Shown: positions 4,161-28,839 of the stretch, one piece after another | How positions within the stretch are numbered: position 1 is the stretch's first letter | Layout of the letters: each line of letters opens with the position of its first letter | DNA from: Candidatus Nomurabacteria bacterium | Lineage (GTDB): Bacteria > Patescibacteriota > Minisyncoccia > Phycocordibacterales > UBA9973 | Direction of reading: 5' to 3' | Assembly (NCBI GenBank): GCA_023267275.1 | Contig: JAHFNO010000017.1 | Span: forward strand, 1-33,330 | Length of the DNA stretch: 33,330 nt | Notes under the pieces: model-generated | Told to the model about the DNA's origin: nothing | The model's database searches: none | The model's input: the letters and a program-made list of their open reading frames with translations, nothing else | Position numbers and translations under genes: made by a program

Positions 4161-5626
4161 ATGTCTTACTATCCGACCATCGGACTTGAAATTCATGCCG
4201 AACTCAAAACAAATTCCAAGATGTTTTGTGGTTGCAAAAACGATCCGAACGAAAAAAAGCCAAATGTAAATATTTGTCCTGTTTGTATGGCGCATCCAGG
4301 AACTATTCCTGTGCCGAACAAGCGTGCTATCGAACAGGTAATTCGTGTTGGTCTTGCAGTAAACGGTACGATTGCAGATTTTACTGAGTTTGATCGTAAG
4401 AGTTATTTCTATCCAGACATTCCGAAGGGCTATCAGATTTCTCAATACAAGTATCCAATCGTTTCAGGTGGTGAGCTCGCCGAAATGAAAATCACTCGCA
4501 TTCATTTGGAGGAAGATACTGCCACGAGCAAACATGATCGCGGAGATTATTCTCTCGTTGATTTCAATCGTGCCGGTGTTCCACTTATGGAGCTTGTGAC
4601 CGATGCGCATACATTCGATTCTGTGGATGAAGCTGCTCGCGTGGGTGCGCAATTTGGAAAAGAATATCAGCTCTTGTTGCAATATCTTGGTGCGTCGGAA
4701 GCCAACATGGAAAAAGGCGAATTCCGTGTGGAAGTAAACATTTCACTTTCTCCAGACAAAGATGTCCTTGGCACAAAAGTTGAAGTCAAAAATCTCAACT
4801 CATTCCGCAGTGCAGAACGAGCAATTCGATACGAGCTCGATCGTATGCGTACACTTCACGAAGAAGGACGTGCGAGTGAAATTGTACAGGAAACACGCGG
4901 TTGGGATGATATAAAACAAAGTACATTTTCTCAGCGCGCAAAGGAATCTGCACAAGAGTATCGCTATTTTCCTGATCCAGATATTCCAAAATTTATGCTT
5001 TCAGAAATGTTTGCTATGGATGAATTGAAAAAAGCATTACCAGAACTTCCTGTGGCAAAGCGCAGTCGCTACGCAAAAGAATTTGGTATTAAAGCAGAAG
5101 ATATTGAAACATATATCAATGACTACGAGCTCGCGCTTTGGTTTGAATCAGTCGGCAACATTCTAAAAAATGCAGAAAAAATTAAAACTGCTTCAAACTA
5201 CATTACTTCCGACTATGTTGGAATGAAAAAGGCCTCCCACCACCCCGCCTCTGCGGGCACCCCTCCTCAGGCAGGAGGGGAGGAAATCAAGCTTCCATCC
5301 CCAGAGCATTTTGCGGAACTTGTCGAGCTTGTTGCTGATGGAAAAATTTCCTCACGCGCCGCAAAAGATATTCTTGCCATGATTGTGGTTGCCGATGCAT
5401 CACCAGTCGCCATTGCTACCGAGCAAGACTTGCTTCAGAAAACGACGAAGGTGCGCTCAAAGAAATCGCACAAAAAATTATCGATGCAAACGAACAAGTT
5501 GTGGCTTCATACAAAGGAGGAAAAGAAAATGCACTCATGAGTCTTGTTGGGCAGATAATGAAAGAAACAAAAGGTTCTGCAAACCCAGCACTCGCAACAA
5601 AAATTCTCAAGGAATTGTTAGGGTAA
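4161..5626 (+). pseudogene. gatB: Asp/Glu-tRNA(Asn/Gln) amidotransferase subunit B, frameshifted near the 3' end
   Basis: GatB is the kinase/amidation subunit of GatCAB, which turns Asp-tRNA(Asn) and Glu-tRNA(Gln) into the cognate amides. The start (IGLEIHAELKT) and the cysteine-rich region (CGCK...CPVCMAHPGTIP) are intact. As read, the frame ends at 5540 after 459 residues with a non-family tail (KTTKVRSKKSHKK). The missing YqeY tail is present in the -1 frame: NDEGALKEIAQKIID...ALMSLVGQIMKE...LLG, stop at 5624-5626. Joining QDLLQK to NDEGAL at the A4 run 5439-5442 restores a normal protein of about 488 residues, which fits one missing A. Residues around 358-374 (ASHHPASAGTPPQAGGEE) come from an inserted repeat. 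gatA and gatC are not in the window. A sequencing error is the simplest cause of the frameshift. Confidence 0.9.
5231..5284 (-). repeat. Hairpin element copy A, in frame inside gatB
   Basis: Read on the minus strand it has the family layout: stem CCCCTCCT / AGGAGGGG (5260-5267 and 5273-5280, loop CAGGC) and the box GGCGGGGTGGTGG (5237-5249). A second small stem CCCGC/GCGGG lies between. It is translated within GatB as ASHHPASAGTPPQAGGEE, in a loop between the structured core and the helical tail. Confidence 0.85.
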
Positions 5627-5633
5627 TGTATTT

Positions 5634-5672
5634 CTTCCTCCCCTTATCGAGGGGAGGATTGAGGTGGGGTGA
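5634..5672 (+). repeat. Hairpin element copy B, left of the DUF559 gene
   Basis: The stem CCTCCCCT (5637-5644) pairs with AGGGGAGG (5650-5657) and is followed by the box GAGGTGGGGTGA (5661-5672). It points towards the DUF559 gene and mirrors copy C on the other side. The alternative GTG start of the gene (5669) falls inside the box. Confidence 0.85.
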
Positions 5673-5674
5673 TC

Positions 5675-6028
5675 ATGAATGCAATAAATAATCGTCATGA
5701 AATAATTTCTAAACGAAGAGGTCTTCGTCGGGAAGCTACACCCCAGGAAATTATTCTTTGGTCACGATTAAGAAATAATCAGCTTGGGTATAAATTCAGA
5801 AGACAACATAGTATTGAAAAATATATTCTTGATTTTTATTGCCCAGTAAAAAAGCTTGCAATTGAAATTGATGGTTCTCAGCATTTTTTTGAAAAATCAC
5901 TTGAATATGATTTAACTAGGACAAATAATCTTTCAGTATTTGGTATAAAGGTTTTGCGCTTCACGAATGCAGATATTAATCTGAACATCGAAGGCGTGAT
6001 GCTAAAAATTCTAGGTGAATTGGGATGA
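5675..6028 (+). CDS. DUF559 family endonuclease-like protein
   Basis: About 117 residues from the ATG at 5675; a GTG at 5669 lies inside the flanking repeat. The family belongs to the restriction-endonuclease-like (Vsr/MutH-related) fold. Visible features are the N-terminal basic LRREATPQEIILWSRLRN, then KFRRQHSIEKYILDFYC and LAIEIDGSQH, which supply the D...ExD acidic set expected of a metal-dependent nuclease, then VLRFTNADI. Length and motif order are normal and complete. It sits alone between inverted copies of a hairpin element also found elsewhere in the window, so it is a candidate for the protein that moves or maintains that element. The fold is known for the family; the mobility role is inference. 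Confidence 0.85.
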   Translation: MNAINNRHEIISKRRGLRREATPQEIILWSRLRNNQLGYKFRRQHSIEKYILDFYCPVKKLAIEIDGSQHFFEKSLEYDLTRTNNLSVFGIKVLRFTNADINLNIEGVMLKILGELG

Positions 6029-6042
6029 TAAAAAATTCTTGA

Positions 6043-6084
6043 ATCACCACCCCCCAACCCCCTCCTCATCAAGGAGGGGAAAAA
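6043..6084 (-). repeat. Hairpin element copy C, right of the DUF559 gene
   Basis: The box CACCACCCC (complement of GGGGTGGTG) at 6046-6054 is followed by stem CCCCTCCT (6059-6066) with AGGAGGGG (6072-6079). It is an inverted counterpart of copy B, making a 451-bp composite unit (5634-6084). It may also terminate transcription. Confidence 0.85.
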
Positions 6085-6138
6085 ATTCATTCATTTTTTA
6101 TCTCTAAACCCTAAACTCTAGACCCTAACCCCTGCTCA

Positions 6139-6156: not shown

Positions 6157-6243
6157 ATGGCAAACAAAGACCCCAAAGGAAAGCGAATACGCTTGCCTGT
6201 CGGGCAAGCTTTTACGAACCTAATCAACATATTTTATGGCTAA
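6157..6243 (+). CDS. Candidate 28-residue leader ORF overlapping the dnaJ start
   Basis: ATG at 6157 opens a 28-codon frame ([13 protein letters not shown]...INIFYG) whose stop TAA (6241-6243) lies within the first codons of dnaJ, so the ATG of dnaJ (6236) is inside it. It starts 9 nt after a good extended -10, so it could be translated from a leaderless mRNA and couple translation into dnaJ. A hairpin GCTTGCC/GGCAAGC (6191-6197, 6203-6209) lies inside it. I do not recognise the peptide; it could simply be the 5' untranslated region of dnaJ. Confidence 0.35.
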
Positions 6244-7321
6244 AGATTATTATGAAGTACTTGGTGTAAATAAATCTTCTTCAAAAGAGGAGATTAAAAA
6301 GGCATTTCATAAACTTGCTCACAAATATCACCCTGATAAAAACAAAGGGGATGATTCGAAATTTAAGGAAGTGAATGAGGCGTATCAAACTCTTTCCGAC
6401 GATCAGAAACGAGCTCAATATGACCAGTTCGGATCAGCTGGACCAGGAGCTGGTGGATTCCACGGAGGATTTGACCCATCAAACATGGGTGGCTTTGATT
6501 TTTCTGGATTCCAGAACGGCCAAGGATTTGATATGGGTGATCTCGGAGATATTTTTTCTGATTTCTTTGGTGGTGGAGCACGTGGCGGACAGCAGACTCG
6601 CCGTGGCCGCGATATCTCAACTGAAATTTCGATTCCATTTGCCGATAGTATTTTTGGAACCGTACGAAAAATTTTGATAACAAAAGTGAGTACATGTGAT
6701 ACCTGTCATGGCTCTGGTACAAAAGCTGGAGCAAAACAAATCACTTGTTCACAATGTAATGGAAAGGGTCAGATTCGCGAGACACGTCGCTCAATGCTCG
6801 GCTCATTTGTTTCAACACGAGTATGTGATGCATGTGATGGCGCAGGTACTATTCCTTCAGAAAAATGTGCTACCTGTCACGGTGCTGGCGTAAAACGAAA
6901 AGAAGAAGAAATTGAAGTTCGTATACCTTCCGGAATCGAAGCTGGCGAAATGATTCGTATGACAGGCGCAGGTGAAGCAGTTCGCAAAGGAACTTCTGGA
7001 GATTTGTATATAAAAATAAATGTGGCACCTCATCCGGTATTCCGACGTGATCGCCAAAACCTTTTGATGGATATGGAGGTCAAGCTTTCTGAGGCTCTAC
7101 TTGGCTCTGAGAGGTCAATTGAAACCCTCGATGGTAAAGTTACCGTGACTATTCCGGAAGGCATCGCTTCGGGCACTGTACTGCGCGTGAAGGAACGCGG
7201 AGTGCCAAGTTCTCGCAGTAAACGAGGAGATCTGATGATAAGGGTGACTGTAAAGATTCCAACCAAGCTCTCAAAGAAGGCAAAAGAAGCAGCAGAGAAA
7301 CTCAAAGAAGAGGGTAATTAG
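6236..7321 (+). CDS. dnaJ: Chaperone DnaJ (Hsp40)
   Basis: DnaJ delivers unfolded proteins to DnaK and stimulates its ATPase. The 361 residues show the full type I layout: J domain with HPD (KYHPDKN, about residues 31-37), a Gly/Phe-rich linker (about 68-120), four CxxCxGxG zinc motifs ([32 protein letters not shown]), and the C-terminal substrate domains ([23 protein letters not shown]). Nothing is missing. dnaK and grpE are not adjacent. Transcription probably begins at the promoter near 6142, and a short ORF overlaps its start codon. Confidence 0.97.
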
Positions 7322-12124: not shown

Positions 12125-12178
12125 TTTCCCCTCCTTTACTAAGGAGGGGTGAATCGTACTCGAGACGGGGTGGTGCAT
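12125..12178 (+). repeat. Hairpin element copy D
   Basis: Stem CCCCTCCT / AGGAGGGG, spacer GAATCGTACTCGAGA, box CGGGGTGGTGC. It is nearly identical, in reverse orientation, to copy F2 at 24859-24917, about 12.7 kb away. It lies between speA and the DHS-like gene and could act as the speA terminator. Confidence 0.85.
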
Positions 12179-22285: not shown

Positions 22286-22378
22286 CTCCCACCACCCCGC
22301 CTTGAGTACAAAATGGTCGCGTTTCAATGACAGTACGCGACTCGATTCTGCAGAATCGCCTCCTCAGGCAGGAGGGGA
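22286..22378 (-). repeat. Hairpin element copy E with an extra insert
   Basis: On the minus strand: stem CCCCTCCTGCCTGAGGAGG, then about 55 nt of extra sequence containing two palindromes (CGATTCTGCAGAATCG, and GTCGCGT/ACGCGAC), then GTACTCAAGGCGGGGTGGTGGG. The stem and box match copy A in gatB; GTACTCRAG before the box matches copy D. It lies between corA and cysS. Confidence 0.8.
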
Positions 22379-24792: not shown

Positions 24793-24855
24793 TTTTCCCC
24801 TCCTGTAACCAAGAGGGGAGTTTTGTATAAGTGTACCCTAAAAAACGGGGTGGTT
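24793..24855 (+). repeat. Hairpin element copy F1 (left half of an inverted pair)
   Basis: CCCCTCCT-GTAACCA-AGAGGGGAG, a 24-nt spacer, then CGGGGTGGT. It faces copy F2 head to head across only a few bases, the same geometry as copies B and C but with no gene between. Confidence 0.8.
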
Positions 24856-24858
24856 CCT

Positions 24859-24917
24859 AAAATGCACCACCCCTTCTCGAGTACGATTCACCCCTCCTTA
24901 GTAAAGGAGGGGAAGCA
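24859..24917 (-). repeat. Hairpin element copy F2 (right half of an inverted pair)
   Basis: GCACCACCCC, TCTCGAGTACGATTC, CCCCTCCT / AGGAGGGG. Over about 58 nt it is the reverse complement of copy D (12125-12178) with only a few differences, showing recent duplication. Confidence 0.85.
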
Positions 24918-26922: not shown

Positions 26923-27091
26923 ATAAAAATACTGGTGCTTGCTGTGTGGTGTTTGGTTTTAGGAATACGAATTGAATACTAACACCAAACACCATACACC
27001 AAAAACCTGACTACAACACGACAGAGTACTGTCCTGTTGTGATTTTACTATATAATTTTGCACCTTCGGTGCAATCTTTCAATTGATAAAA

Positions 27092-28796: not shown

Positions 28797-28839
28797 CCCA
28801 AACATCACCCATAGGAAATTCCTATGGGTGATGTTTGGG
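28797..28839. repeat. 19-bp perfect inverted repeat upstream of trpS
   Basis: CCCAAACATCACCCATAGG (28797-28815) pairs perfectly with 28821-28839, 5-nt loop, no T-run. It is too long for an ordinary terminator and resembles the palindromes in mltG and at 19021. Confidence 0.85.

Follow-up and report, generated by a model that had tools for sequence, protein, structure and literature searches.

DUF559 nuclease genes and BoxC/PIT/TM-type hairpins as a probable REP/RAYT-like dispersal system

Introduction

A stretch of 33,330 nt (hereafter the window) from a Patescibacteria-type genome of ~1.02 Mb holds one small DUF559 nuclease gene between two hairpins that face each other, and further copies of the hairpin lie in the same window. 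What are these hairpins, and is the nuclease responsible for their dispersal? BoxC/PIT triplex elements have been on record from the 1990s onwards and are known in hundreds of genomes; to our knowledge, descriptions to date lack both a function and a means of spread for them. The original prediction for this locus was that the DUF559 protein recognises or mobilises the hairpin, much as RAYT transposases do REP sequences, and that the copies standing alone are non-autonomous derivatives.

Results

A lone DUF559 gene between facing hairpins

The features of the window are listed below; the hairpin E-values come from a covariance model (CM) built partly from window hairpins that it scores. The model was used for searching only and consists of 15 idealised 35-nt cores, idealised because MAFFT misaligned the mixed element set; outer pairs and loops were set to a common length, and one box is off by one mistyped base.

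4161–5540, + strand: gatB (Pfam GatB_N, E 6.7e-96), left neighbour of the unit and host of copy A
5238–5281, − strand: copy A, solitary, in frame inside gatB
5636–5670, + strand: hairpin B, box towards the DUF559 gene (CM E 8.4e-13)
5675–6028, + strand: DUF559 (PF04480) gene, 117 aa, Vsr-like PD-(D/E)XK nuclease (Pfam E 5.5e-31)
6046–6080, − strand: hairpin C, box towards the DUF559 gene (CM E 6e-10)
6236–7321, + strand: dnaJ, right neighbour of the unit
12126–12175, + strand: copy D, solitary, box GGGGTGGTG after a longer linker
22290–22378, − strand: copy E, solitary, long linker with a second hairpin (CM score weak)
24795–24855, + strand: copy F, left half of a facing pair without a gene
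24865–24914, − strand: copy G, right half of that pair

The product of 5675–6028 scores 107 bits against PF04480 (curated cut-off 20.6) and is the sole DUF559 match genome-wide. Hairpin B reads TCCTCCCCT-tatcg-AGGGGAGGA, followed by a 3-nt turn (TTG) and the mirror box AGGTGGGGT; its stem has 9 bp, and the mirror code described below is exact across 9 nt. Hairpin C reads CCCCTCCT-loop-AGGAGGGG with the mirror box GGGGTGGT, an 8-bp stem and an exact mirror code. The folds of B, C and F/G were each better than 200 of 200 dinucleotide shuffles, and the pattern CCCCTCCT-N(3-14)-AGGAGGGG has four exact matches, compared with 0.00 expected by chance. Pfam, the covariance model and the shuffled folds confirm the originally noted arrangement of two facing copies around a lone DUF559 gene; the further copies without a nuclease, originally put at five or more, are A, D, E, F and G.

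The linkers of copies A and D–G exceed the 3-nt turn of B. Copy D is an inverted copy of G (56-nt block, 98% identity), and the DNA fold of the F/G pair has a z-score of −5.5. The window genome overall has 43 covariance-model matches to the hairpin, which lie near gene ends and in many cases are intergenic; doublets without a gene occur in that genome as well. An Rfam search matched no family for the hairpin element. Other repeats in the window are a run of CCCTAA-like units directly after hairpin C (6104–6135; CCCTAAACTCTAGACCCTAACCCC), an inverted repeat whose perfect 21-nt arms enclose a single central nucleotide and which is not related to the hairpins (28797–28839; CCCAAACATCACCCATAGGAA), and an imperfect 29-nt inverted repeat, rich in GGTG/TTTGG, with arms 16 nt apart (26934–27007).

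The box is a mirror image of one stem arm

The surroundings of 100 DUF559 genes yielded 147 purine-arm hairpins, in which the box mirrors the 3′ arm of the stem, with G matched by G and A matched by A or T. The whole arm obeys this code without a mismatch in 61% of the hairpins, compared with 7% (maximum 12%) after downstream windows were exchanged between loci whose arms differ. Direct-repeat, strict-mirror and A-to-C codes fit far worse. At 13 loci with unlike left and right stems, a hairpin's own box fits perfectly in 73% of cases and its partner's box in 4% (p 2e-5). Of 117 elements, 67 have a turn of precisely 3 nt separating arm from box. Turn lengths peak again at 17–21 nt, and in the cases inspected linkers of this size are able to fold into another hairpin. 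As far as sequence can tell, the relation between box and arm is the antiparallel purine-motif triplex code. Since the sequence is free to vary while the three-strand relation is kept, selection would appear to act on the folded shape.

The hairpins follow the sequence rule of BoxC/PIT/TM elements

The same anatomy has been described as that of BoxC/PIT/TM intrastrand triplex motifs (Holder et al. 2015, PMC4666352; see also Hoyne et al. 2000, as cited there), with 23 copies in E. coli MG1655 and more than 260 genomes carrying the motif. Those elements, like the ones described here, are dispersed hairpins with a mirror third strand of the purine motif, which B and C both carry. B and C also have the characteristic perfect stem of at least 7–8 bp, with a pyrimidine 5′ arm and a purine 3′ arm, and the short second loop of about 3 nt is likewise shared (TTA in type A and CCG in type B of the known elements; TTG in our hairpin B, and the prevailing turn length overall). 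The E. coli elements also form inverted pairs (A+B). By this shared rule, and by comparison with E. coli copies rather than with a published sequence table, the window-type hairpins are BoxC/PIT/TM intrastrand triplex elements.

There are two differences. The E. coli copies are always intergenic, whereas many of those described here lie in frame within genes. Moreover, BoxC/PIT/TM elements previously had no known partner protein, whereas here they are tied to DUF559, Patescibacteria included. The text of PMC4666352 nowhere mentions DUF, endonuclease or ycjD, and its authors state that transposase or integrase remnants were never found near the motifs. The original reading of the stem and box as a REP/RAYT-type arrangement had overlooked both their known identity and the in-frame insertions.

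The DUF559 protein resembles Vsr and a homing endonuclease in fold

An AlphaFold model of the protein (30 sequences; pLDDT 88, pTM 0.81) predicts a Vsr-like fold, which together with the PF04480 score places the protein in the DUF559/YcjD class. Its closest solved structure is NGO0050, a DUF559 protein of N. gonorrhoeae (3hrl; Foldseek E 2e-7), followed by the catalytic domain of I-Bth0305I (3r3p; Foldseek E 3e-4, HMM E 4e-5), an EDxHD homing endonuclease. E25, D53, E64, D66 and H70 are among the invariant DUF559 residues, consistent with a PD-(D/E)XK site. In profile and structure comparison I-Bth0305I and Vsr share the catalytic fold of the window protein; however, the latter is a stand-alone, hairpin-flanked protein of ~117 aa, with neither an intron nor a separate DNA-binding domain. 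Since the Caulobacter DUF559 protein VsrA has been tied to cytosine-methylation mismatch repair (PMC12907096), not every member of the family need serve hairpins. PADLOC gave only weak, partial matches for the window gene, which we therefore do not call a defence gene.

DUF559 genes and hairpins occur together across bacteria

We picked 100 DUF559 loci (20 + 80) by protein similarity alone; they span Patescibacteria, Chloroflexi, Bacteroidota, Clostridia, Proteobacteria and others. A flanking pair was called where the upstream flank, compared with the reverse complement of the downstream flank, exceeded the 95th percentile of shifted controls. Inverted hairpin repeats flank both sides at 67 of the 100 loci, compared with 5% of shifted controls, and a detectable pair is absent at 33. 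The prediction was to be given up if DUF559 genes in relatives were not associated with the hairpin, and the opposite is seen. A clear element is present on both sides at 28 loci; at 22 of these the pair is symmetric, and the boxes point inward in 14 cases and outward in 8. Flanking inverted hairpins were found at none of 10 weak or other-context DUF559-like domains.

The association also holds between genomes. Among 100 relatives, hairpins occur in all 20 genomes with a strong DUF559 gene (a short DUF559 with E below 1e-20), at 2–64 copies, but in only 6 of the 80 others (Fisher p 4e-16); near-absence where DUF559 is missing is the reverse of the equal occurrence that would have spoken against the prediction. 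The co-occurrence persists within genera (within-genus permutation p 5e-5): in the genus of the window, two DUF559 genomes have 43 and 39 hairpin matches and the other four have none. Similarly, in 119 genomes of the order Enterobacterales, hairpins are found in 12 of 13 with DUF559 and in 16 of 106 without it (p 4e-8). One genome (G183) has DUF559 and no hairpin matches, for which strict search filters could be the cause. Three genomes (G010, G125 and G212) have many hairpins and no DUF559; these hairpins could be orphans left after loss of the gene. We conclude that the link between DUF559 and triplex hairpins is strong. DUF559 proteins with 39–44% identity to the query are also found in two unannotated gut phage records, MT835749.1 and MT835756.1.

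Hairpins and whole units are inserted at sites that are empty in relatives

In four genomes of the same genus (G001, G003, G004 and G005), gatB–dnaJ synteny is kept without the DUF559 unit, and GatB is ~14 residues shorter, corresponding to copy A. Two genomes from different genera carry a complete, in-frame DUF559 unit at a shared position of leuS; between the two, the LeuRS proteins are 53% and the DUF559 proteins 51% identical. The same position holds a single hairpin in a third genome and is empty in eight others. Whole DUF559 units also lie in frame within hsdM and within a DNA methylase gene. In-frame hairpins in the window genome are found in truB (a doublet), rsmA and recG. The truB insert is missing from relatives with good alignment; recG is weaker evidence than gatB or truB because relatives vary in that loop anyway. 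G005 carries an unrelated, longer insert in the recG loop that holds the element in the window genome, and thus the loop seems tolerant of inserts.

The original prediction had called for empty sites and target-site duplications. Empty sites were found (gatB–dnaJ, gatB, leuS and truB); duplications were not, and in comparisons of species-level relatives neither these nor exact element borders were definable. Rickettsia palindromic elements, as cited in PMC3733652, are likewise palindromic repeats in frame within protein-coding genes, and the copies in gatB, truB, rsmA and leuS are in-frame coding insertions of this kind; the likeness, taken from the description rather than from the sequences of those elements, concerns in-frame insertion only. 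As a separate observation, a NUDIX-like domain interrupts the editing region of LeuRS in four related genomes, a further in-frame insert in leuS.

The E. coli counterpart

The E. coli DUF559 gene, ycjD, is present in K-12 and has BoxC-type elements directly downstream. YcjD and NGO0050 belong to the DUF559 family like the window protein. YcjD has been known to be Vsr-like since 2005 (PMC1189080), and in the literature searched both proteins have been studied solely as predicted nucleases, with no link to a repeat.

Between sapF and fabI, some E. coli strains carry ycjD together with BoxC-type elements and others carry the eef efflux operon, the ycjD form being present in about 3,330 of 5,426 genomes. 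We rejected this polymorphism as a unit insertion: it is a gene replacement by the eef operon, already described (PMC12817139). We also rejected dolP–yraQ and trpS–yhfZ as clean insertions; at each, the triplex element and REP-type sequences are alternative strain alleles of one intergenic slot (eight loci compared), and this swapping means that the element boundary is not definable there.

Discussion

We consider it probable that DUF559 genes and BoxC/PIT/TM-type triplex hairpins form one REP/RAYT-like dispersal system. The predicted analogy to REP/REPIN sequences and their RAYT enzymes (TnpA-REP, "REPtrons"; PMC8266576) holds in that both comprise short palindromes with a conserved box, an inverted pair around one nuclease gene, many solitary copies elsewhere and doublets without a gene, and empty sites are found here as well. 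However, REPtrons have a tyrosine HUH (Y1) enzyme between the palindromes, whereas the gene here encodes a Vsr-like PD-(D/E)XK protein, and the REPtron box is a GTAG-type guide, whereas the box here is a mirror third strand.

We infer that the DUF559 protein mobilises the hairpins by recognition, nicking and copying. A DUF559 gene between two inverted hairpins would be the autonomous unit, and solitary hairpins and facing doublets the non-autonomous copies. Once single-stranded, for instance on the lagging strand, the element would fold into the hairpin, and the box would return alongside the purine arm to form a third strand. This folded shape would be recognised by the Vsr-like nuclease, which would tolerate various stem sequences and nick at or near the foot of the fold. 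PD-(D/E)XK nucleases cut DNA and do not rejoin it, and host repair must therefore be invoked: the element or whole unit may then be copied elsewhere by template switching or during the repair of a break, in the manner of homing nucleases or TnpA-REP.

Several observations count against a dispersal system. One third of the DUF559 loci have no flanking pair, and the hairpin-rich genomes G010, G125 and G212 have no DUF559. Triplex formation is published for the E. coli sequence only: its isolated single strand forms a stable triplex in vitro, but in vivo Holder et al. did not detect one (PMC4666352). Comparisons of relatives yielded neither target-site duplications nor exact borders, and the Caulobacter family member VsrA is tied to mismatch repair instead. 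Lastly, the polymorphic E. coli sites swap with REP alleles and show no clean insertions.

Alternatively, DUF559 might confer tolerance: it would clear hairpin or triplex obstacles during replication, and hairpins arising by other means would persist only where the nuclease is present, with the gene travelling alongside its substrate. Genome-level co-occurrence is equally expected under this explanation, and the published motifs are a block to DNA polymerase in vitro and coincide with unstable loci (PMC4666352). Nonetheless, tolerance leaves unexplained why inverted copies enclose the gene in 67% of loci, and why whole units are inserted in leuS, hsdM and the methylase gene; we regard it as unlikely.

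Homing, in which a free-standing EDxHD/Vsr homing endonuclease gene cuts empty alleles and gene conversion copies the unit, with the hairpins mainly serving as ends or insulators, would fit the leuS position that is occupied by units in two genera, by a hairpin in a third genome and by nothing in related genomes. The closest characterised fold, that of I-Bth0305I, belongs to such an enzyme. Yet homing alone does not account for the solitary hairpins and doublets that lie by the dozen at unrelated sites, and we think it rather improbable.

It is very unlikely that an HUH (Y1/RAYT-type) transposase spreads the hairpins with DUF559 as a passenger. Similarly built REP elements are linked to RAYTs (PMC8266576, PMC3733652), and Y1_Tnp is enriched in hairpin genomes (23 of 26, compared with 38 of 74 hairpin-free genomes), a loose correlation. 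However, no Y1_Tnp match was found in G005, which has 39 copies, or in G015; Y1_Tnp occurs without hairpins in those 38 genomes, whereas DUF559 is far more specific (20 of 26 hairpin genomes and none of the 74 others); and the genes that hairpins flank are DUF559 genes. Hardly to be entertained is the proposal that the hairpins, many of them intergenic and near gene ends, are ordinary terminators or insulators whose position reflects selection to isolate a toxic nuclease gene, since published tests found no terminator or promoter activity (PMC4666352), in-frame copies within coding genes cannot terminate, and a terminator has no role for a mirror box.

The element and the protein family were already known; their coupling, its breadth and a REP-like organisation with a non-HUH nuclease appear to be new, the DUF559–repeat link being absent from the literature searched, which mostly excludes subscription journals. 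The dispersal system that we favour would be a REP-type system whose nuclease has a different fold and which depends on recognising the shape of a DNA triplex. It would make DUF559 the first candidate enzyme for the spread of the orphan BoxC/PIT repeats, and would account for in-frame peptide inserts in conserved proteins. We advance more tentatively, and would not bet on, the wider proposal of a bacteria-wide minimal mobile element, in which a Vsr-like nuclease of ~115 aa recognises a DNA triple-helix fold rather than a sequence and disperses that fold. If true, this would explain both the BoxC/PIT repeats and the in-frame hairpin peptides inside bacterial proteins; and the presence of the family in E. 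coli K-12, as ycjD, makes the spread of BoxC/PIT elements directly testable in a laboratory strain.
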